DNA from: a bacterium
GTDB lineage: Bacteria > Zhuqueibacterota > Zhuqueibacteria > Residuimicrobiales > Oceaniaggregativiventaceae
NCBI GenBank assembly: GCA_029565675.1
Contig: JAKQNP010000019.1
Location: forward strand, 124,001-188,000
DNA: 64,000 nucleotides
Reading direction: 5' to 3'
The position numbers and the translations under genes are program-made. The notes under the pieces are model-generated. The model worked only from the letters and a program-made list of their open reading frames with translations, was not told the DNA's origin and did not search any database. The first letter of the stretch is position 1. Every line of letters begins with the position of its first letter. This document shows positions 51,264 to 63,539 of this stretch, piece by piece.

Positions 51264-52262
51264 TCACTCTGTTTTTAAAAATTCTTCTGCATAGGCAAAC
51301 ACCGCCGGCGCCCCGCCCGTATGCCAGAACAGCACATTTTGCTTGCGGCTGAACACGCCCTTATCGATCATATCCAGCAAGCCGGCCATGGCGCGGCCGG
51401 TGTAGACCGGGTCGAGGATCACCGCCTCTTCGCGGGCCAGCAGGCGGATCGCATCGCGTTCCGGCTTGCCCATGCGGCCGTACCCCTCGCCGAGATAGTC
51501 AGTATTGATTTCGAAATCCTGCGGTTGAAAGGTTTCTTGCAGCTGCAGCAACGAGGCCAGATCGTTGGCAAGCGCGGCCAGTTCGCTGCGAAACGGCTGC
51601 GGACCGGAATCCGTTCGATCGATGCTGATGCCCAGCAGGCGGCCGTAGTAACCAAAAATCCGCGCACCCACCGCCAGTCCGGCCTGCGTGCCGCCCGAAC
51701 TCGTCGCGAACACGATGGCATCCGGATCGACATCCATCTGCGACAACTGGTTAAGCGTCTCCTGCATGGCGACAGCATAAGCGAGCGCTCCCAGCCGGTT
51801 GGAGCCGCCGATCGGGATCACATAAGGCCGGCGTCCCTGCCGCCGCCGCTTTTCCGCCAGTTCTTCCATCGCCTGGCTGCGGTTCTCAGGCGCGGTCCAG
51901 TGCAGCTCCGCACCCAGCAGCTCGTCGAGCAGCAGATTGCCGTTGGCTATTGCCGGCGGCGAACCGCCGAGAACCAGATCGCAGCCGAGCCGGTTGCGCA
52001 CCGCCGCGGCCGCTGTCTGCCGGCAGTGGTTGCTCTGCGCACCGCCGGCGGTGATCAGCAGGTCGGATTTCTGTTTCAGTGCCTCGGCAACCAGATACTC
52101 CAACTTGCGCGCTTTGTTGCCGCCGCCGGCCAAACCGGTGCGGTCATCCCGCTTGATCCAGATGGTCGGACCTTTCAACTTCAGGCTGAGCCGGTAGAGC
52201 GGCTCGATCGGTGTCGGCAATTGCGCCATGTGCACGCGGTGAAACGAAGCCAGATCTTTCAT
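51264..52262 (-). CDS. PLP-dependent D-cysteine desulfhydrase / ACC deaminase family
   Basis: About 332 aa, tryptophan-synthase-beta-like fold. The PLP lysine region GGGNKARKLEYLV, TAGGAQSNHCRQTAAAA, GGSNRLGALAYA and ATSSGGTQAGLAVG are the family signatures. Members split D-cysteine or 1-aminocyclopropane-1-carboxylate; D-cysteine desulfhydrase is the more common bacterial activity. ATG 52262 overlaps the stop of the GH20-like gene by ATGA, so translation is coupled, which is an unusual partnership. Confidence 0.9.
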   Translation of the reverse strand: MKDLASFHRVHMAQLPTPIEPLYRLSLKLKGPTIWIKRDDRTGLAGGGNKARKLEYLVAEALKQKSDLLITAGGAQSNHCRQTAAAAVRNRLGCDLVLGGSPPAIANGNLLLDELLGAELHWTAPENRSQAMEELAEKRRRQGRRPYVIPIGGSNRLGALAYAVAMQETLNQLSQMDVDPDAIVFATSSGGTQAGLAVGARIFGYYGRLLGISIDRTDSGPQPFRSELAALANDLASLLQLQETFQPQDFEINTDYLGEGYGRMGKPERDAIRLLAREEAVILDPVYTGRAMAGLLDMIDKGVFSRKQNVLFWHTGGAPAVFAYAEEFLKTE

Positions 52263-54718
52263 AGCAACGGCCACTCCCTCCATGATCGGCGCAGCAAGAT
52301 TCGGCCAAAAGTCGTCCGTCTATCGCCCGGCAGATCCGGCGTCGGGCCCGTCACCCGCAGGCGCACAAAAAATTGCCCGCCGGCCTGGCGGTCGACGGCC
52401 GGAACCTCCAGCCAAAAATTGCTCACCCGGTGATAACGGTTGAGACGAAAATTGAAACGGTCGATATCCACCGGCAGGGCTTCTGCCGCGCTCCTGCCAT
52501 ACAGCAATTCGGCGCGATGGAAATCGATACCGGACGCACCGCTGTCGAAAAGACAGACCACGTCGATCGATCCCGGCTGCAAAAGATCGCCTTCGACGGC
52601 AAAAAACAGACAGGTATCGCCCGGCGCGGCGAACGATTCGGTGTGCCAGCCGCCAAGCGGCTGCGAGCGAAAAACGGCCAGAGAATCGGAAATGTCAGCG
52701 AAAGGAAAAGCCCGGCGCGCCAATTCGGCAGTAAACGCCGGGAAATCGACCGAGTCGCGAAAGCGCTCGTGCAGCTCGGTGCGCTTCACCGGCACAACCG
52801 ATTGACCCCAGCGCGAGACGGCTTTGGATATCCGGCTGCCTTCTACATCGATGACCGCAAAAATCTCGGCAGCGCGTAGCGGTGTCAAGGTACCTGCAGC
52901 CTGCTGTTCCGCCAGCTGCTGCAAATTCTGCAGCAGCACGAGAGTCGCGAGCACCGCCTCGCTCTCCTGGCACATAGCCGCAGTGCCCTTGTTCTCCGCT
53001 GTTTGCAGAGCCCGGCGCGCCGACTCGATCGCGCCCTCGAGTTCACCGCGGTCGTGGAATTCTTCCAGCAACCAGCCGCCGAAGTGCAGGGCGCGGAATT
53101 TATCCTCGATCTTGCCTTGCGAGATAACCCCATCGACAAAGATCTGACCGCCAGCGGCAAAGATCAATTCTTGCACCGTTCGACTCCCTGCCAGTTGCCA
53201 GCCGACCGGACCGATCTGCTCCACCCACCGGGCATAAGCCCGCGGTTCGGGAATCCCCTGTTCCCCGGCAAAAGCGCGGCTGAACTCGGCAACTGTGCGG
53301 CCGTCGCAATTCCATCCCCATTCGGCCGCTGCAGCAATCGTGGGCCGATAATAATCGTTGCGCGGCGGAGCGTAGCCGCGAAAAGAGCGCAAGCCTTTGC
53401 GGCTGAACTCCTGCATGCGTGCCTGCATCAACTGCACGCTGCTGAATGGAAAGATCGTCCGCCAGGAAGAGGTCAATTGCGGATAGACCCCGAGCCAGCC
53501 GCCGCTGCCGCTGTAGGCGGCCAACAGCGAATCGATCATCGGCCGATGCGAGCTGTCGTAGGTCAGCCCCCCGTGATAAAAAGTCACCCGCACGCCGGGA
53601 TCGATCGCCTGCAAAATGGCGGCATTGTGCGCGTAACTGGCCTGTGACAACAGAATGTGCAGCACATCCCCGGGGTGACGGTCTTGAACCCGTTTAAAAG
53701 CCCGGCAAACACCCTCGGTCTCCAGAACAAAGGGATCCTGTCCCAGACAGCGATCGCAATAACAGCCGGCCTCGGTCTCGGACAGCCAGACGTTGACTTC
53801 ATCAACGCCCGGCTCTGCGAGCAATTGATCGATCCAGCCGCTCAACAACTCGACGGTCCTGGGCTGCGAAAAACAGACGCCGGGCTGATAATCGTTGGGC
53901 AGGGGTTTGCCCGGCTGTGGGATCGACGCCGTTTCCGGATGGTGGCGGAACAGACCGGTGACGGCCAGCAGTTCCAGATGGCGGATCACCGGCACGACGT
54001 GGATATGGCGGCGCCGGCACGCGGCGAGCATCTGCTCGTCAAAAGAGGCCTGCGGCCTGCCGGATTCGTCAAACCCGAGATTGGAGTGCATCTCCACGAC
54101 GTTAAACTTGTGCGCCGCCATCCAGTCGAGATCACCGATAAAATTCCAACCCCATTGCCCGCGATGCTCGATGTCGGGCCAGTCGCGGATCCAAACCTGC
54201 GGGATGCGCACCAGTGCTGTTTGCAGGCTGTCCAGCGCCAGCAGCCGGCGCAAACTCTGGGCGCCGTACCACAATCCCAACTTGGACTGCGCCGTGATTT
54301 GCAGACCGCTAAATCGGCCGTCCGACTTTTGCGGCGCTATCGTGTAAGCCTGCTCGGGGAAAGCGATTCCTGCGATTGCCTGTTTCCAGGCGTCGATCTG
54401 CTCGGGGGTTGTTTCCGGAATCAGGACAAATTCGATGAGCCAATCACCGCCCTGGTCCAGAGGCTGCAAAAGCTCGCCGAATTCGGCATCATCCGTCCCG
54501 AAGGACGCCGGCCAACGCAAACCGATCTCCTGCAACGCCACCTGTGCATCGCCGTCGATGCGGATCTCCTGCGGCAGCGGCAGCAGACGGTCGAGCCAAA
54601 AATCGGCATTCGGCACCTGCGAACAGGAAGACATCAGCAAAGCAAGCAAAAGCAGCATCGCACTCGGTCTAAAGTGCATGGCCGGACCCAAGGCCTGCGG
54701 CCGAATTTGCAGATTCAT
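52259..54718 (-). CDS. GH20-like glycosidase lipoprotein of unclear activity
   Basis: 819 aa. Lipoprotein signal with lipobox LLMSSC. Residues about 40-150 resemble the zincin-like N-domain of GH20 hexosaminidases (LPLPQEIRIDGDAQVAL..AYTIAPQKSDGRFSGLQITAQSKLGLWYGAQSLRRLL). A TIM barrel follows (IRDWPDIEHRGQWGWNFIGDLDWMAAHKFNVVEMHSN) with NVWLSETEAGCYCDRC at the position of the acid/base pair, and a long helical plus beta-sandwich C-terminal part. The classical GH20 Asp-Glu pair is not obvious. It is probably a surface or periplasmic glycosidase. SD AGAGGA 5 nt before ATG. Confidence 0.75.
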   Translation of the reverse strand: MNLQIRPQALGPAMHFRPSAMLLLLALLMSSCSQVPNADFWLDRLLPLPQEIRIDGDAQVALQEIGLRWPASFGTDDAEFGELLQPLDQGGDWLIEFVLIPETTPEQIDAWKQAIAGIAFPEQAYTIAPQKSDGRFSGLQITAQSKLGLWYGAQSLRRLLALDSLQTALVRIPQVWIRDWPDIEHRGQWGWNFIGDLDWMAAHKFNVVEMHSNLGFDESGRPQASFDEQMLAACRRRHIHVVPVIRHLELLAVTGLFRHHPETASIPQPGKPLPNDYQPGVCFSQPRTVELLSGWIDQLLAEPGVDEVNVWLSETEAGCYCDRCLGQDPFVLETEGVCRAFKRVQDRHPGDVLHILLSQASYAHNAAILQAIDPGVRVTFYHGGLTYDSSHRPMIDSLLAAYSGSGGWLGVYPQLTSSWRTIFPFSSVQLMQARMQEFSRKGLRSFRGYAPPRNDYYRPTIAAAAEWGWNCDGRTVAEFSRAFAGEQGIPEPRAYARWVEQIGPVGWQLAGSRTVQELIFAAGGQIFVDGVISQGKIEDKFRALHFGGWLLEEFHDRGELEGAIESARRALQTAENKGTAAMCQESEAVLATLVLLQNLQQLAEQQAAGTLTPLRAAEIFAVIDVEGSRISKAVSRWGQSVVPVKRTELHERFRDSVDFPAFTAELARRAFPFADISDSLAVFRSQPLGGWHTESFAAPGDTCLFFAVEGDLLQPGSIDVVCLFDSGASGIDFHRAELLYGRSAAEALPVDIDRFNFRLNRYHRVSNFWLEVPAVDRQAGGQFFVRLRVTGPTPDLPGDRRTTFGRILLRRSWREWPLL

Positions 54719-54760: not shown

Positions 54761-56323
54761 TCATTTGATACAGGTCAAACGGCCGCTGCGGCGCTCGCCG
54801 GATCCCTGCAGACAATAGCTGTAAATCCCGCTCGGCCAATCGGCGGTGCCGACCGCCGCTCGATAGGATCCGGGAGCAAAATAGCTGTGCTGAAAAACGG
54901 TTTGGGCGCGGCGGCCGAGAAGATCGTACACAACCAGCGACAGGTTCTGGCCATGGCGCACGGAGAATTCGATGGTCGTCTGTTCATTAAAGGGATTGGG
55001 ATAGTTGCCGCAAACCTGAAAAGTCGCCGGTCTGGCGCTGTTGTCGGAATCTGATCGGCCGACGCTGTTTTCGCCGCCCCAAAAATAGAGGAGAATCTCA
55101 TCCACCAGCGCTCGCCAATTACCCCACGAATGGCTCTCGTTTACCTCGCGATAGTCGAATGCATAGCCTTTGTCCGACAGCACTTTGTGCATTCGCCGGG
55201 CGCCTTCTTCGGTATCGTGAATGACGCCGGTGGTCATTGCGATCCTGAGCGGCATCACTGCCGCGCCGGCATACAGGCTATAGATCTGGTGGTTGTAGGA
55301 AAATGCCGGCGATTGAATACCCAGCAGGTGAAATCGATCGGTATGGCGCGTTCCCAGATAAGCGGCGAACAAGCCGCCCATCGATGTGCCGAGAATCGCG
55401 CGACCGTCAGCATCGGCGCGGGTACGATAGGTCGAATCGATATAAGCGGTCAGCTCCTGCGCGACAAAATCGGCAAAGCGGGGATTGAGATTGTATTCCT
55501 GCATGCGCCGGTTTTCATCGGGATTTTCGGGATTGCGCGGATCGATAAAAACCGCCAGCACCGGCTCCACTCGCCCGTCGGCGATCAGGTTGTCCAACAC
55601 AACCGGCACGGCACCCAGACGCGCGTCTGCATACTCGTGGCCGTCGGTGATGTACAACACCGGCAACTCTCCCATCTCCTGGCCGACCGCCGGCGTGTAG
55701 ACGCGGATGTTGACCTTGTAGCCGAGATGAGCGCTCGACAAAGCGATGGGCGCGGACAACGAACCCTGGGCGATCCCGGGTGATCGCAGGGTCTCCTGCG
55801 GATAGAGCCAGGCCGGCATGCGCAGCTCCGAGTTGGGACCGTAACCGCCCCACTGCACAAAGGGATTGGCAGGATCGAGAATCCATTGGCTGCCGTTGAG
55901 CACGATCTTGTAGTCCAGACGAGCATTGGTCGGGAACTGTGCGCACAAGAGCCACACATCGCTTGCACCCACTCGTTGACCGCGGTTGTCGAAACCGCTC
56001 TCCCCGCCCCAGCGATTGAAATCGCCGGTCCAGTGCACGGATTCGGCCTGACCGCGATAGAGAAAGGCGACTGAATCCCCCAGCACAAAGGGAACGCGGT
56101 TCTCGGCGAGCAGACTCTGCCAAAGCGTATCGAGCCGTTGTTGCCGAAGCGCGCCGTCATCGATTGTCGCAGTTGCCGTCAGAGTGTCGATAAAAGCCCG
56201 AAAAGAAGGCCATGCCATGGTTTCAGTCTCCTGCGCCTGTAGAGATCCTGCTGCCACCAGGACGATCCAGGTGATTGTCCACAAAGTGTAAAATCGGCTG
56301 TTTTTAAAATTCGCCATCATCAT
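54761..56323 (-). CDS. Exported esterase (Fes/EstD-like) with N-terminal E-set domain and T9SS-type sorting domain
   Basis: About 520 aa. Signal peptide (IVLVAAGSLQAQ). An N-terminal beta-sandwich resembles CBM48/E-set domains (VHWTGDFNRWGG..YKIVLNGSQWILDPANP). The esterase domain has LPVLYITDGHEYADARLG, the elbow AILGTSMGGLFAAYLGT and a late His in NESHSWGNWRALVDEIL. The last 85 residues are the FlgD-like sorting module (NYPNPFNEQTTIEF). Enzymes of this type cut feruloyl, acetyl or siderophore esters. The start is one of three consecutive ATGs at 56323-56317; no clear SD. It sits 49 bp after the amidohydrolase pair. Confidence 0.88.
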   Translation of the reverse strand: MMMANFKNSRFYTLWTITWIVLVAAGSLQAQETETMAWPSFRAFIDTLTATATIDDGALRQQRLDTLWQSLLAENRVPFVLGDSVAFLYRGQAESVHWTGDFNRWGGESGFDNRGQRVGASDVWLLCAQFPTNARLDYKIVLNGSQWILDPANPFVQWGGYGPNSELRMPAWLYPQETLRSPGIAQGSLSAPIALSSAHLGYKVNIRVYTPAVGQEMGELPVLYITDGHEYADARLGAVPVVLDNLIADGRVEPVLAVFIDPRNPENPDENRRMQEYNLNPRFADFVAQELTAYIDSTYRTRADADGRAILGTSMGGLFAAYLGTRHTDRFHLLGIQSPAFSYNHQIYSLYAGAAVMPLRIAMTTGVIHDTEEGARRMHKVLSDKGYAFDYREVNESHSWGNWRALVDEILLYFWGGENSVGRSDSDNSARPATFQVCGNYPNPFNEQTTIEFSVRHGQNLSLVVYDLLGRRAQTVFQHSYFAPGSYRAAVGTADWPSGIYSYCLQGSGERRSGRLTCIK

Positions 56324-56372
56324 CTTTTTCTGTATTACCCAGATTATGTGTTGCTGCCCGGGTGCTCCCCTG

Positions 56373-57161
56373 CTACGCCACCTGTTGCGCACGCGCGAGA
56401 ATCTTGCGCGCGTTGGCGCCGAGCAGCTCGATTTTGACTGCATCGCTCAGATCGGCGCCGATCACCCGGCCCAACTGCTGTGCCTGGTTGATGAAAATGC
56501 AATCCGAACCCCAGACGACCTTGTCGCTGCCAGCTTCGGCGACCAGATGTTCCAGCAGCCCTCTTCTGGCCTGGCTGAAAGCGAGCTCGAGATAGACGTG
56601 TGGATACTTGTTCGACAGGCGGATGTATTCGTGCACCCGTTCGCTGCCGCTGTGCGCGAGCAAAAACGAAATATTCGGAAAACGCGCTGCCAATTGCTCG
56701 ATGTCGCGGATCTGCCGTTCCTCGCCCCAGGTGTGCAACAACAGCGGCAAACAGCGTTCCTCCGCGATTGTATAGGCTTGCTCATAGCCGGGATGGGTGT
56801 AAGGCAATCCGTTGCTGTCGTGCAACTTGATGCCAATAAAGCCCTTGTCCAGCCATCCCATCACCGACCGCCGAATCGACTCGGCCTTGCCGGGGTAAAC
56901 CGAGATGTAGCCGCAGATTCGCCGCGGAAAAGCCTGCATGGCCGCATGGATCTCTTCGTTGCCCTCTTCGGTGTAGCGCGTCAGGCAGTGCATCGAGCTG
57001 CACAGGATCGCATCGATGCCCAGGCGGTCCATGGAACTGACCAGGCTCGCAGCCGACAGATCGGGAATGGTAAAACCGTAGCGGCCGAGATGGCCGTGGA
57101 TATCGACGATATCGATGCCGAGGGATTCGCCGTGACGCGCGCGTTCGAACAGAGTTTTCAT
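56373..57161 (-). CDS. Amidohydrolase-family metal-dependent hydrolase, intact metal site
   Basis: 262 aa, amidohydrolase_2 TIM barrel. The metal ligands are all visible: DIHGHLG (His22, His24), LPLLLHTWG (His), FLLAHSGS (His) and WGSDCIF (Asp). GIKLHDSNGLPYTH follows the pattern of decarboxylase/hydrolase members. Cytosolic. Its ATG overlaps the stop of the metal-less paralogue upstream by ATGA, so the two are made together and may associate. Substrate unknown. Confidence 0.9.
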   Translation of the reverse strand: MKTLFERARHGESLGIDIVDIHGHLGRYGFTIPDLSAASLVSSMDRLGIDAILCSSMHCLTRYTEEGNEEIHAAMQAFPRRICGYISVYPGKAESIRRSVMGWLDKGFIGIKLHDSNGLPYTHPGYEQAYTIAEERCLPLLLHTWGEERQIRDIEQLAARFPNISFLLAHSGSERVHEYIRLSNKYPHVYLELAFSQARRGLLEHLVAEAGSDKVVWGSDCIFINQAQQLGRVIGADLSDAVKIELLGANARKILARAQQVA

Positions 57162-57904
57162 CGGATCTCCTCCTGCAACCTGCGAAAGTTACCGGCAGCG
57201 ATTTTTTCCTTTTCTTCGGCTGAGATTTGGCTGTCGAACAGCATCATTGCCGCAGACATCGGTTCATTTTCAGGAAAGCCGGTGCCGAACAGCAATTGCT
57301 CGCATCCCGCTTCCCTGACCAGCTGCTCCATCCCGCCGTGCAGAGTATAATTGTTGCCGATCGACAGATGGACCCGTTTGAAGGATTTCAGCAGCGGCAG
57401 CAGGATGCGCTGTTCCCGGTAGCCGACCTGGGCAAAGATGATGCGCAGATCGGGATAAGAACGCGCGAGGTCGGCGACCTGCGGCGGCGGACAGTTGCGT
57501 GAAGAGATCCAGACCGGCAGGTTGCGATCGGTGAGAGCGCGAAACAGGGAATCGCTGAGCCACGGAGCGATGATCCAATAATCGGCGATCGGCCGAATCG
57601 TCACCGCCGCCGCTCCCTGGGCGATCGCCCGGTCGATCTGCTCTGCCTCGGGCGCCAGATCATAGCCGGTGTTGGGCAGGACGGTAGGACATGGGATCAG
57701 CTGCGGTGTGTCGGCACAGGCGGCAAAGAGTTGGTCATTGGAAAAAATCACATTCACGTCGAGTTCTATCGGCTCGACGCGCACCAGAGCGGCGCGCAGC
57801 TGCATGCGCGCACAATAGTCGAGCAGCTGTTGGCGATCCACAACCGCGGTTTTGCCCGGTTGCGTGCCGCCAAAGCCGACTTGCACATCGATCAATTCCA
57901 GCAT
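57158..57904 (-). CDS. Metal-site-deficient amidohydrolase paralogue (probable pseudoenzyme)
   Basis: About 248 aa with the same fold and order as the next gene, but every ligand position is changed: DVQVGFGG replaces DxHxHxG, WISSRN replaces the LLH strand, FAQVGY replaces the AHSG strand, and FGTGFP replaces the FGSDFP-type Asp. Fold residues such as the LLFGTGFPENEP loop and a C-terminal NFRRLQ helix remain, so the gene is not decaying. It is probably a structural or regulatory partner of the intact enzyme, with which it overlaps by ATGA. Start ATG 57904 has AAGGA 8 nt upstream; the track ATG at 57913 is too close to the SD. Confidence 0.8.
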   Translation of the reverse strand: MLELIDVQVGFGGTQPGKTAVVDRQQLLDYCARMQLRAALVRVEPIELDVNVIFSNDQLFAACADTPQLIPCPTVLPNTGYDLAPEAEQIDRAIAQGAAAVTIRPIADYWIIAPWLSDSLFRALTDRNLPVWISSRNCPPPQVADLARSYPDLRIIFAQVGYREQRILLPLLKSFKRVHLSIGNNYTLHGGMEQLVREAGCEQLLFGTGFPENEPMSAAMMLFDSQISAEEKEKIAAGNFRRLQEEIR

Positions 57905-58047
57905 GCAAAACATCCTTTCAAAGTGATGGCAGTCATCCTGCGCCTCGCTGCAGAAGAGATTGAATTCAGGTCAGGACAGTTGGCAAAATAAGGTAAAAAA
58001 TTCTAGTGAAAAGGACAACTGTTGAATACAATTTTTGCATTCCGGAC

Positions 58048-58094: not shown

Positions 58095-58568
58095 CTATTC
58101 TTGCGGCTCCGGTGGAGGCGGCGGGGTGCCTGCAGGCGGAACCGGCCGGCCTTCCGGCCATTCGGGGTGTGGCTGGCGAGGGACTCGCATCGGACGCCAA
58201 CCGGGGCCCGGAAATCCTTCGCGGGGCCGTTTGAAACGCTCCAGCTGTTCCGGGGTCAAAAGCGGCTCGATTTCCCGCCGCATGCTGTCGACGATCGCCT
58301 GCAATTCGGTGCGGTGCCTCTTTGCGGTCTTTTGTAAATCGAAAAAATAGCGCTTGCTGATGATGCCAAGGGTGTCGCGCTGTGTTTCGGTCGGTCGCAA
58401 GAGTTCATCTTGCAGGCGCAGGAAGATCCGCGGATCGTCCAGACGGCTGAACTTTTTCTCCCAGGGTTTCGGCGCCCACAGCAAACGGCCGATGAACAGC
58501 CCGATCGCCATGCCGATCAACAGCGTCAGCAAAACAATGAGCATGGATTTGGTTTGAATTGAGGTCAT
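58095..58568 (-). CDS. Spy/CpxP-like membrane-anchored envelope protein
   Basis: 157 aa. One N-terminal transmembrane helix (MLIVLLTLLIGMAIGLFIGRLL), then a helical periplasmic part with LRLQDELLRPTETQRDTLGIISKRYF..IVDSMRREIEPLLTPEQLERFK, the LTPEQ-type pattern of Spy/CpxP and zinc-resistance proteins. The tail is Pro-rich (PPAGTPPPPPEP). It overlaps the anti-sigma gene by ATGA and is the last gene before a strong terminator, so it is probably part of the same envelope-stress sensing unit. Confidence 0.78.
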   Translation of the reverse strand: MTSIQTKSMLIVLLTLLIGMAIGLFIGRLLWAPKPWEKKFSRLDDPRIFLRLQDELLRPTETQRDTLGIISKRYFFDLQKTAKRHRTELQAIVDSMRREIEPLLTPEQLERFKRPREGFPGPGWRPMRVPRQPHPEWPEGRPVPPAGTPPPPPEPQE

Positions 58569-58990
58569 AGAATATCCTCCAGAGACGGTGAAAAAGCCGG
58601 CAGAATGACATCTTCGAGCGAAACAACCGCATCCGACAGAATCCCAAACGAGGCGTGGCGCCGGGCGAGATTGCAGGCGAACAACAGAACGACGACTGCA
58701 CAGCCCACCACCGCGATGCGGCGAAAGGCCCGGCTGAGAGAGACAAAAAAGAGGAAATCGGCCGATTCTGCTTGCTCCTGACGGCGGATTCTGGCCATCA
58801 CCCGTTCGACAAAAAAAGGCTGAAAGCGGTCACGGCGGATCTGGCCCAGAGAGTCGCGCAGAGCGCTGAAATCCTGGTAATTGCGGGCAATTTCCGGCTG
58901 CTTGTGCAGCTGGTCGGCCAAAGCCCGGCGTTCCGCCTCGCTCAATTCCTCTTCGTCATAGAGCCACAGATTTTTTTGTTTCTTTTTCAT
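58565..58990 (-). CDS. Membrane anti-sigma factor
   Basis: 141 aa. A cytosolic N-terminal helical part (LYDEEELSEAERRALADQLHKQPEIARNYQDF) resembles anti-sigma helices, followed by one transmembrane helix (IAVVGCAVVVLLFACNLA) and a short periplasmic tail. It has no zinc HxxxCxxC motif. It follows the sigma-factor gene by 26 bp and overlaps the Spy-like gene. ATG 58990 has GAGGA 5 nt upstream; the track start at 59263 overlaps the sigma gene. Confidence 0.82.
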   Translation of the reverse strand: MKKKQKNLWLYDEEELSEAERRALADQLHKQPEIARNYQDFSALRDSLGQIRRDRFQPFFVERVMARIRRQEQAESADFLFFVSLSRAFRRIAVVGCAVVVLLFACNLARRHASFGILSDAVVSLEDVILPAFSPSLEDIL

Positions 58991-59016
58991 CAAATCCTCG
59001 TGAGTCAAATTGTCGT

Positions 59017-59619
59017 TCACGGTTGAGATCGCGGACGTTTCCTGCCAGCGGTTTGGCAAATTCTGCCGCCGGTTCGGTAAGGGTCGAGAGCCTTTTGCAA
59101 ATGTTTTTGCGCGCGCGACAGTCGCGACAGCACCGTGCCTTCCGGAACAGAGAGAATCTCTGCCGTTTCGCGAGTGGAGTAGCCCTCGATGAGGCGCAAC
59201 ACCACCACCGCGCGAAACCCGGCGTCCAGACGCTCCATCGACTTTTCGAGCACCTCGCGCCATTCCGCCGGTTCTGCGGTCACGGTCGGCAGTTCTGCCG
59301 CTGCCACCGTCTGCAAATCCAGCAACCGCCGGCGCTTGCGCCGCTTCAGCTCGTTCAGGGAGAGATTGATGGCGATGCGGGTCAGATAGGTCGCCACCGT
59401 CGAATCGCCGCGAAACCGCGACAGGCTTCTATAGAAACGGATGAACGTTTCCTGACCAATGTCGTCTGTCTCCGGACCATCGCCGAGCATGCCGTGGATT
59501 GTCGCCGCGACCCGGGCTTCGTGGCGCCGCACCAGTTCGGCAAAGGCTCGTTCATCTCCCTGTCGCGCTCGCTCTACCAGTTCGCAATCGGTCAACTCAG
59601 GCCCTTCCGCTTTGTCCAT
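59017..59619 (-). CDS. ECF-family RNA polymerase sigma factor
   Basis: 200 aa. Region 2: ELVRRHEARVAATIHGML..DDIGQETFIRFYRSLSRFRGDSTVATYLTRIAINLSLNELKRR. Region 4: MERLDAGFRAVVVLRLIEGYSTRETAEILSVPEGTVLSRLSRAQKHLQKAL. Length and spacing are normal. Held inactive by the next gene's product. The start is uncertain: ATG 59619 is used here; the longer TTG start at 59670 would overlap the Ldh gene stop. No clear SD for either. Confidence 0.92.
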   Translation of the reverse strand: MDKAEGPELTDCELVERARQGDERAFAELVRRHEARVAATIHGMLGDGPETDDIGQETFIRFYRSLSRFRGDSTVATYLTRIAINLSLNELKRRKRRRLLDLQTVAAAELPTVTAEPAEWREVLEKSMERLDAGFRAVVVLRLIEGYSTRETAEILSVPEGTVLSRLSRAQKHLQKALDPYRTGGRICQTAGRKRPRSQP

Positions 59620-59662
59620 TAGACAAAGCCGGCTGCGAAATATTCCCAGGACACCGTTTTTT

Positions 59663-60754
59663 TCAGTCAAAGGCGATCTTGGTCTTGCGCGAAATATCGC
59701 GCAACTCTTCGACCACCGGCAGGATCAGCGGGATACCCACGACACGGCGGATCGCTTCGGCGTCGGCCTCCGGATCGCCGGGGACCAGCGGGCCGTCGGT
59801 GCCGGGCGCGGGCTTGGTGGCGCGCATGGTCTGCACATAGTCATCGATCTGCCGCTTGAATTCATCCGCGTCGATAAACCCGTCGATGCGCAGGGCGCCG
59901 AAGAAATGGCCAATGCCTTTGCCGACGCTGCGTTCCGGGATTTCCTGGCGCAGGGCAAACGGCGGCGCAAAAGGTCCCCAATTGGCGCCGCTCAGCACAC
60001 AGCTGAGCACATCGACCATGGTCGCCAGACAGTAGCCCTTGTGGCCGCCGCGCTCGCGCGTCGAGCCGAGCGGCAACAAGGCGCCGCCCTGCACCATCTG
60101 GTTGGGATCCGTGGTCGGTTGGCCTTGGGCATCGATCGCCCAGCCTTCCGGCAGCTGTTCGCCCTTGCGCCGCGCCATTTCGACTTTGCCGTAGGCGGCG
60201 GCGGTGGTGGCCATATCGATGACGATCGGACGCTCTTTGAGGGCGGGAAACGCGATGGCGATGGGATTGGTACCCAGGCGCCGTTCGCCGCCCCACAGAG
60301 GCGCCACCAGCTTGGTCGAGTTGGTCATGGCCCAGCCGATCAGATCGTGCTTGAGCGCCTGAAGGACATAATAGCCGGCGATGCCGAAATGGTTGGTGTG
60401 GCGCACGCTGACCCAGCCGGACCCGCTGGCCAGAGCCTTGTCCATGGCGATGCGGTTGGCTTTGGGACCGACCACCAGCCCCAGGCCGTTGTCGCCGTCC
60501 ACCGTCGCCGTGCTCGGTGTTTCGCGGACCACGCTAACTTTGGGCTTGGGATTGATGCGGCCGAGCTCGAACATGTCAAAGTAGGTGTGCAACCTGGCCA
60601 CACCGTGCGAAGAGATGTCGCGCAAATCCGCGGCGGCCAGCACATCGCTGGCCAGATCCGCATCCGCCTTGTCGACGCCAAAATATTGAAAAACACTGGA
60701 GGAAAAGGATTTCAGTTTTTCGATGGGATAGGTCAGGGTTTGTACCTCGTTCAT
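59663..60754 (-). CDS. Ldh/malate dehydrogenase-family NAD(P)-dependent oxidoreductase
   Basis: 363 aa, the Ldh_2 family (malate, L-lactate, ureidoglycolate and sulfolactate dehydrogenases), unrelated to classical LDH. Seen: ADLRDISSHGVARLHTY, SVRHTNHFGIAGYYV, TNSTKLVAPLWGGERRLGTNPIAIAFPA, and the nucleotide-binding RERGGHKGYCLATMVDVLSCVLSGA. Substrate not readable. AAGGA 10 nt before ATG, with a candidate promoter 50 bp further up. The sigma-factor operon starts immediately after it and may be partly read from the same promoter. Confidence 0.9.
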   Translation of the reverse strand: MNEVQTLTYPIEKLKSFSSSVFQYFGVDKADADLASDVLAAADLRDISSHGVARLHTYFDMFELGRINPKPKVSVVRETPSTATVDGDNGLGLVVGPKANRIAMDKALASGSGWVSVRHTNHFGIAGYYVLQALKHDLIGWAMTNSTKLVAPLWGGERRLGTNPIAIAFPALKERPIVIDMATTAAAYGKVEMARRKGEQLPEGWAIDAQGQPTTDPNQMVQGGALLPLGSTRERGGHKGYCLATMVDVLSCVLSGANWGPFAPPFALRQEIPERSVGKGIGHFFGALRIDGFIDADEFKRQIDDYVQTMRATKPAPGTDGPLVPGDPEADAEAIRRVVGIPLILPVVEELRDISRKTKIAFD

Positions 60755-60923: not shown

Positions 60924-63536
60924 TTATTTTACTAACATAATACGTATCTGCTTTTTAGCGATTGGCGTTGTAAAACGCATGAGATAAATTCCGCTGCTGA
61001 ACCGACTGCCATCCCAGCACAGCCTGTGATTTCCTGCCTCTTGCATTCCATTAAAAAGTGTTTCGACCAGGCGTCCGCCAACATCATAGATCTCAATTCT
61101 GATCCACATGGAATGGGGCAGATCATAGATGAAACTCGTCAGGCTGTTAAAGGGATTGGGGAAATTCTGCTGTAGAGAGAAAAGTATAGGGATATTGCTC
61201 ATTTCTGGCCCAATTGAAGTCGTGCCCTGGTATTCAACCGAACCGATATCCACGATTCCGCCAAAAATTCTGAGGCGGTTGCGCTGATCCCAGTCACATC
61301 CAGCTGGAACAGCTGAGTTTGTGCCGCTATCGATGGCCAGGCTCGTATCGTCCGGAGCGCAGGTCAAGGTAGGCCCGCCATTGTCATTTAATTCCCCAAG
61401 CAAGGGATCGACGGCCAGCGCACCGGGCAAACTGCCATCGGCGACAAGATTGGTAAAATTGCCCAAAGGAGCAATTCCTTTGTAATCCGCTCCCAGTTGA
61501 CTGTAGGCGATAAGGGTATTGCACAGCGTCAAAGTTGAAGAAGCGAACAGCCCAGCGCCAAGCGCATTGATGTTTCGTGAAAATGTGCATGAAAAAATTG
61601 ATGAATTTTCGTTGCAGTTCCACACCCCTCCGCCTTCATCCGATGCTTTATTCTCATAAAACGTAGAGTTTATCAATGTGACCGGAAAACGCCCATCGAT
61701 GTAAATTCCACCGCCGAATGTTGCCAAATTGGCATTGAAGGTACTGCTGTTGATTTCCATTCGATTCATTGAAAAAATGGCACCACCATTTGCAGCTTTA
61801 TTCATCGTGAAACTGGAATGTTTACAGAACATTCGCGCCCCGCCGCCATCATGACAGATCCCCCCTCCTGCTGATTGAGCGAAATTCTCGGTAAAATCAA
61901 CATATTCGATGAAGGCGGAATCTGCATTGCACAGTGCTCCGCCATCCAGCAGACTGGCATTCTTTAGAAACTTGCCACCCGTTATTTTGATGATGCCTTT
62001 GGTTCCAATGGTCGGATAGACCGGCTCATAACCGTTATAGATAGCACCTCCCTTCAATTCGGCCTGGCTATTCTCAAACTCGCAGGCATATAGAACGATT
62101 TCACCGGAACGGGTGTTGTAAAGCGCACCACCTGAGGTGAGAGAGTTGTTCGCCAAGAAACGGCTCTTGCTGACAGCCACCTGTTCACACTGGTTGTATA
62201 TGGCTCCCCCTCGTTCAGCCTGATTTCGACTAAACAGGGTATTGGCGATATCGACAGAAGTGTAACTCGAGCCAACATTGATTGCACCGCCATTTGCTTT
62301 GGCAAAATTATCTTCAAAATGGCATCCGACTATTTGGCAGGGAGCCGAAACTCCGAGATGCAGCGCACCTGCGTCGCGATCACAGCTGTTGGCAATGAAT
62401 TGTGTTTCAGAGATCATGGTTTCCTCGAAATAGCCCCAGATGGCCCCACCGGATTCAGATGCATAGTTTTCCTTGAAAAGACACCTGGTCACTAGAAGTT
62501 TTTGCCCATCTGGACAAAAGATCGCTCCCCCGGAATATCTAAAAAGGCCTATAGCCTCCGCTCGATTGCCAATAAAATTCGATTGATCGATGACCAGATG
62601 ATTTTCATCCCAACCAAAGATACCGCGGTATTGATCGCTGACCACACAGTTGTTCATCGTTAAACGGCAATATTCTTTAAGCTCTATACCATATAAAGTG
62701 TTTTTATTGATTTCGCTGCCATTGATCTCCAGCCGGCCTTCACTGATCACGATACCGCCTGTTCCGTTGCCATTTATTCTACAGCCTTCGATATAAATCC
62801 GAAAAGCCAGGTTGATGAGGATGCCCCTGCCGCCATTGTCACAAATTTCACATTGGCTCAAAGTTGGATTGAAGGAAAGATGGTTATTCACTATGATTCC
62901 GCTTTTGCTATTGTGGCTGATTTTCGTCCGCTCGCAGTTGAATTCACGCTCAACGCAGATCCCCGAGCCAACATTGTATTCAATCTGCGAATCGGTGATG
63001 GTCAGTTTGCTCGCCTCGCCCCTACTGCAAATTCCACCGCCGTCTTGATGGGCTATGTTTTGCGCAATGAGGCTGTGATGAACGGATAATTCGCCTGTAT
63101 TGTAGATGCCGCCTCCGTTATTAATGGTATTACAAGCGTAAATTTGACAATTGTAAAGTGTGAGCACACCCAAATTTTTAATACCGCCGCCATCAAAATC
63201 CGCCGTGTTCCCCTTGCCGTTGCCATGCGCAAATTTAATATCTGACAACTGAACAACAGATCCTTTCTCAACCACGAGAATCCTGACCGCCTCCTTTCCG
63301 TCAAGGATGATTTCCCGTTGTTCACCTAAAATCGTCAGGGTTTTGTCTATTACGAGCTGCGATACCAGAGAGATGTGGAAATCGCGGGAAAACTTTATGC
63401 TATCTCCATGAAAAGCGACATCGATGATGTCGCGCAGAGAACCGGGTCCAGAATCAGAAAAGCTGGTTACATAAAGGGTGTTGCCCAAAAGAGAGGTAAC
63501 GCAAAGAAGAATAATAACACCAGTGATCTTTGCCAT
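60924..63536 (-). CDS. Exported right-handed beta-helix (Pmp/choice-of-anchor-Q-like) protein with T9SS-type sorting domain
   Basis: About 870 aa. Signal peptide (IILLCVTSLLGNTLYV). SFSDSGPGSLRDII, the usual opening of choice-of-anchor Q proteins, is followed by about 20 beta-helix coils with repeated GGGI, GGAI and GGAL plus FxxN turns (DGGGIKNLG, NGGGIYNTG, SGGAIWGYF, NGGAINVGS, RGGAIYNQ, DGGALCNAD). NNGGPTLTCAPDDTSLAIDSGTN closes the helix. The C-terminus is the FlgD-like sorting module (NFPNPFNSLTSFIY). Probably a surface or secreted adhesin or polysaccharide-binding protein. Start taken at the second of two ATGs (63536), 5 nt after GGGAGG. Confidence 0.88.
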   Translation of the reverse strand: MAKITGVIILLCVTSLLGNTLYVTSFSDSGPGSLRDIIDVAFHGDSIKFSRDFHISLVSQLVIDKTLTILGEQREIILDGKEAVRILVVEKGSVVQLSDIKFAHGNGKGNTADFDGGGIKNLGVLTLYNCQIYACNTINNGGGIYNTGELSVHHSLIAQNIAHQDGGGICSRGEASKLTITDSQIEYNVGSGICVEREFNCERTKISHNSKSGIIVNNHLSFNPTLSQCEICDNGGRGILINLAFRIYIEGCRINGNGTGGIVISEGRLEINGSEINKNTLYGIELKEYCRLTMNNCVVSDQYRGIFGWDENHLVIDQSNFIGNRAEAIGLFRYSGGAIFCPDGQKLLVTRCLFKENYASESGGAIWGYFEETMISETQFIANSCDRDAGALHLGVSAPCQIVGCHFEDNFAKANGGAINVGSSYTSVDIANTLFSRNQAERGGAIYNQCEQVAVSKSRFLANNSLTSGGALYNTRSGEIVLYACEFENSQAELKGGAIYNGYEPVYPTIGTKGIIKITGGKFLKNASLLDGGALCNADSAFIEYVDFTENFAQSAGGGICHDGGGARMFCKHSSFTMNKAANGGAIFSMNRMEINSSTFNANLATFGGGIYIDGRFPVTLINSTFYENKASDEGGGVWNCNENSSIFSCTFSRNINALGAGLFASSTLTLCNTLIAYSQLGADYKGIAPLGNFTNLVADGSLPGALAVDPLLGELNDNGGPTLTCAPDDTSLAIDSGTNSAVPAGCDWDQRNRLRIFGGIVDIGSVEYQGTTSIGPEMSNIPILFSLQQNFPNPFNSLTSFIYDLPHSMWIRIEIYDVGGRLVETLFNGMQEAGNHRLCWDGSRFSSGIYLMRFTTPIAKKQIRIMLVK

Positions 63537-63539
63537 CAT

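Follow-up and report, generated by a model that had tools for sequence, protein, structure and literature searches.

A metal-site-free amidohydrolase paralogue, encoded beside or fused to its intact partner, as the probable second half of a bacterial enzyme

Why should a bacterium keep, directly in front of an apparently intact metal-dependent amidohydrolase gene, a second gene for the same fold in which every metal ligand is missing? The question is raised by a gene pair in the 64,000-nucleotide stretch of contig JAKQNP010000019.1 analysed here (the window). We conclude that the protein without a metal site, A, very probably contributes to a functioning enzyme and is not a decaying copy of its neighbour B, since many distant bacteria keep the pair, often as one protein. 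Both genes and their signals lie on the minus strand. Gene A (57158..57904) encodes 248 residues from the ATG at 57904 and 251 residues from an alternative ATG at 57913. The former is the likelier start because the Shine-Dalgarno-like GAAAGG at 57914..57919 is spaced 9 nt from it but directly abuts the latter. Gene B (56373..57161, 262 residues) starts within an ATGA (57158..57161) in which the stop codon of A overlaps the start codon of B, and an AGGAGG of its own lies about 7 nt upstream of its ATG, within the 3' end of gene A. Both features make translational coupling likely. A sequence-only reading of the locus had taken the overlap to favour 1:1 synthesis; the overlap is indeed present, yet alone it fixes no ratio. 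Among pairs encoded by separate genes (split pairs), 15 of 27 could have such a 4-nt overlap.

Both proteins exceed the Pfam cut-off for Amidohydro_2 (PF04909, 26.4 bits), A with 46.8 and B with 90.7 bits, which agrees with the fold proposed for them from the sequence. In B, the stretches DIHGH, LLHTW, LAHSG and WGSD form part of an intact HxH / K / H / H / D site whose layout is of the mononuclear type, with HxH on beta-1, one His each on beta-5 and beta-6 and Asp on beta-8. A profile alignment places the B ligands H22, H24, H143, H170 and D220 opposite non-ligand residues in the A stretches IDVQVG, WISS, FAQVG and FGTG, and A of the window thus retains none of the five, exactly as the sequence-only reading had described. 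The same reading held that the fold-determining loops of A are nevertheless intact; AlphaFold2 predicts a complete barrel (pLDDT 92.9, pTM 0.92). Direct comparison by BLASTP (E 0.007) is too weak to reveal kinship between A and B, and their relationship therefore rests on the comparison of the family profiles, which align over the full length with 99.9% probability. Searches of NCBIfam and of PDB sequences yielded no function for A. In fold comparison its closest solved structures are 2-amino-3-carboxymuconate-6-semialdehyde decarboxylase (ACMSD), itself of the Amidohydro_2 family, and decarboxylases of the gamma-resorcylate / dihydroxybenzoate type.

The loss of ligands in A is not due to chance, as it holds across 99 A domains: 85 have none of the five, 14 have one, none has more, and no homologue with HxH was found among them. 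All five ligands are present in 93 of 102 B domains and the remainder are mostly truncated. Weak actinobacterial matches (L131-L143) grouped apart from both A and B and were excluded from these counts. A tree with an outgroup separates A (100/96) and B (99/76) as two clades; given the monophyly of A, its metal site was lost in ancient times. A has been retained under purifying selection nearly as strong as that on B, with dN/dS of about 0.18 for A and about 0.16 for B between the window and a relative from the same genus, a comparison in which synonymous sites are near saturation. The distance matrices of A and B correlate only moderately (Pearson 0.54, from an alignment that included one mis-cut row, L180_B). 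As a separate observation, the B halves of three Paenibacillus fusions (L113, L125 and L126) have Asp at the place of the expected beta-5 His, perhaps through an alignment shift or as a variant site.

The genome of the window carries the pair a second time, on contig C43, as a single 544-aa ORF in which an A domain without ligands is followed by an intact B domain. This ORF adjoins genes for a class III aminotransferase, a URO-D-type protein and a sodium:solute symporter. Within the phylum of the window, A was found in 30 of 82 genomes, in split pairs or in fusions of about 540 aa, and, apart from matches truncated at the edge of a contig, always together with B. In 84,980 species genomes, a scan returned about 60 fused loci, from KSB1/Calditrichota, Ignavibacteria, other Bacteroidota, Opitutales (Verrucomicrobiota), Latescibacterota, Armatimonadota, Chloroflexota, Planctomycetota, Lentisphaerae and Paenibacillus; its query was the fused alignment, because the mixed A alignment had no conserved stretch to search with, and fused forms were favoured accordingly. 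Whole-genome searches of ten of these genomes uncovered many more split pairs, and Paenibacillus eucommiae alone has about ten or more A genes. B was adjacent in 19 of 20 further split A loci that were fetched. The pairing on which the sequence-only reading depended is therefore kept in relatives, where B either is fused to A or lies directly downstream of all split A genes checked but one. This exception, L167:2493-3410 of P. eucommiae, comes after genes for a DeoR-like regulator and a rhamnulokinase-like sugar kinase. As expected for an accessory catabolic trait, the distribution is patchy: within the order of P. eucommiae, the query genome is the only one of 61 that has A, and within the class of an Ignavibacteriales genome six of 61 have it. 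Whether judged by the B half (100/100) or by the A half (100/94), the fused proteins group together as one clade, and the fusion thus probably occurred once. At one locus (L101 / L025, G050:C775:5182-6778), the fused gene is frame-broken in its B half into a 482-aa ORF and an overlapping 143-aa ORF; the break is either genuine or a sequencing error.

Natural fusion, which occurs even in the same genome, is a strong argument for a 1:1 complex. From it and from the conserved pairing we infer that A and B associate physically, in support of the earlier suggestion of a hetero-oligomer composed of a catalytic and a pseudoenzyme subunit. None of the three outcomes that the sequence-only reading had named as speaking against it was observed. 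AlphaFold2 models the 544-aa fused protein as one well-packed unit (pLDDT 95.4, pTM 0.93), and a pTM of this height for two barrels means that the position of each half relative to the other is predicted with confidence. Fusion and model together suggest that the dead A may bind and activate B. We think it fairly likely, by analogy with ACMSD, that the two form an obligate heterodimer with a composite active site that arose from an ACMSD-like homodimer. One ancient duplication of such a homodimeric amidohydrolase would have given A and B; A would then have lost its metal site and become fixed as a non-catalytic partner, while B would retain the single mononuclear metal site that A completes or organises into an active site.

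The substrate pocket of ACMSD contains Arg51 and Trp194 of its own subunit. ACMSD resembles B in fold and ligand set and is active only as a dimer, in which the neighbour supplies the substrate-binding Arg239 (human Arg235) located after beta-6 (PMC11650718, PMC9021598); the monomer is inactive because this Arg comes from the neighbouring subunit. Unlike the A-B pair, in which one partner has no metal site, ACMSD has a complete site in each subunit of its homodimer, and its identity with A in fold comparison is very low (12-14%). The candidate counterpart in A is R169, the nearly invariant last Arg of a YREQR motif (57407..57421, minus strand; residues 165-169 of the 251-aa form) in the first turn of helix alpha-6, which spans residues 165-177 in the AlphaFold2 model. 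Arg is the fifth residue of this helix in the models of A of the window and of both the A half and the B half of the fusion. Arg235/239 of ACMSD sits eleven residues after the beta-6 His, and its match with the Arg of A is one of a short aligned stretch and of helix position, not of superposed structures. The alpha-6 Arg is found in 77 of 78 A domains in one alignment and in 89 of 98 in a larger set, the latter made up of all eight A proteins of split pairs from the phylum, 69 of 70 fused A domains and 12 of 20 more distant split ones; among these last, Arg is shifted by one residue in five and three have no Arg at the column. At the same column, Arg occurs in none of 27 split B proteins and in 60 of 74 fused B domains.

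This distribution is consistent with an alpha-6 Arg of A that reaches into the pocket of B, much as Arg239 of the neighbouring subunit does in ACMSD. B of the split pairs would have lost its own Arg, which would render these pairs fully asymmetric; as fused B keeps the residue in 60 of 74 cases, any reciprocal loss would be confined to split pairs. A wider scenario, which we put forward tentatively and with somewhat less than even confidence, is that of a multi-phylum family in which a homodimer became a one-site heterodimer by reciprocal loss, B keeping the metal and A the Arg acting in trans, and in which a later single fusion spread in carbohydrate-catabolic clusters beside a class III aminotransferase. 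Should the step involving Arg fail, A would be left as a stabilising or allosteric dead partner.

Taken as an explanation of its own, a purely structural or allosteric A would stabilise B or sense a ligand and give no residue to the active site of B. Precedents for such a role are trypanosome prozymes and a Pseudomonas pseudo-dihydroorotase (PMC5201418, PMC7053772), and fused A domains carry Lys/Arg on beta-4 and Asp/Glu on beta-5 (each in 67 of 70) that could line a ligand pocket. However, A of the window has Thr and Ser at these positions, so that the idea of a ligand pocket cannot explain the pair of the window, and it is the alpha-6 Arg that nearly all A domains share. We regard this explanation as unlikely, albeit as one to be taken seriously. 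The conserved beta-4 Lys and beta-5 Asp/Glu of fused A could instead belong to a new, metal-free active site, which would make A a second enzyme and let the pair run two reactions. Against this, the beta-4 Lys is invariant in B as well and hence ancestral, both residues are missing from A of the window, and invariant polar residues in A are few (D9 and N242, plus R169); we give it little credence. That A is a decaying duplicate lying beside B by chance might be read from the absence of all five ligands in the window, but it is contradicted by the equal loss throughout the A clade, by purifying selection on A and by the conservation of pairing and fusion. We reject it as scarcely credible.

The pairing of an enzyme with a dead paralogue is in itself a known arrangement. 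Known examples in which the dead copy completes the live enzyme are mostly isolated, and we know of no fused form of the trypanosome prozymes. The prozymes of AdoMetDC and deoxyhypusine synthase resemble A in that a dead paralogue and an active enzyme form a functional heteromer (PMC5201418, PMC3663545), but they have unrelated folds, are eukaryotic and are encoded by separate genes. A equally is a dead paralogue of an active partner and under purifying selection. In the aspartate transcarbamoylase of Pseudomonas, the pseudo-dihydroorotase pDHO is, like A, a member of the amidohydrolase superfamily without zinc ligands, and it is needed in a 1:1 ratio for the activity of its partner (PMC7053772); it differs from A in its superfamily branch and in its partner, which is a transcarbamoylase and not a paralogous Amidohydro_2 enzyme. 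The gamma-resorcylate, 2,3-dihydroxybenzoate and 5-carboxyvanillate decarboxylases are among the best fold and profile matches, and our searches found no heteromeric form of them with a dead subunit. Open-access literature searches likewise gave no description of such an A-B pair; within that literature the family, its breadth, its fused form and the probable composite site appear to be undescribed. The large natural series of split and fused forms, with many paralogous pairs in single genomes such as that of P. eucommiae, makes the transition from a symmetric to an asymmetric enzyme directly testable. There are also consequences for annotation and expression: homologues of A pass the Amidohydro_2 model as enzymes though they are unable to bind metal in the usual way, and homologues of B may be inactive when expressed alone.

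The sequence-only reading had further placed the pair in an operon with three other genes. These are present on the minus strand and encode an exported esterase with a C-terminal sorting domain (54761..56443; PF00756, PF18962; true start probably near 56320), a lipoprotein with GH20 domain 2 (52259..54718; PF02838, 26.5 bits against a cut-off of 26.1) and a PLP enzyme related to D-cysteine desulfhydrase / ACC deaminase (51264..52283; PF00291; TIGR01275 just above its cut-off). As a set they do not accompany the pair: the esterase and the GH20-like protein recur only in one other member of the genus, and the rest does not recur with it. A class III aminotransferase related to glutamate-1-semialdehyde aminomutase lies directly upstream of 33 of 55 fused loci, and heparinase-like proteins, symporters, Gfo/Idh oxidoreductases, sugar-isomerase-like barrels and glycosidases are encoded near fused loci; symporters also adjoin some split pairs. 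Such aminotransferase and sugar-gene neighbourhoods point to a role in the catabolism of a carbohydrate-derived, possibly aminated compound. The pair may use its metal to hydrolyse, hydrate or decarboxylate a compound that is anionic and probably derived from a sugar.

In two genomes of one family (L146 and L147), inspection by eye revealed split pairs near LutA/LutB-like lactate-utilisation genes and a galactokinase gene. Just upstream of the pair in the window, positions 58095-59670 encode what resembles a small envelope-stress set: an ECF sigma factor (59017-59670), a probable anti-sigma protein and a small membrane protein that is rich in proline and has an LTPEQ-type motif. Positions 60924-63539 encode an exported protein of 871 residues, repetitive and beta-helix-like, with a sorting tail at its C-terminus.
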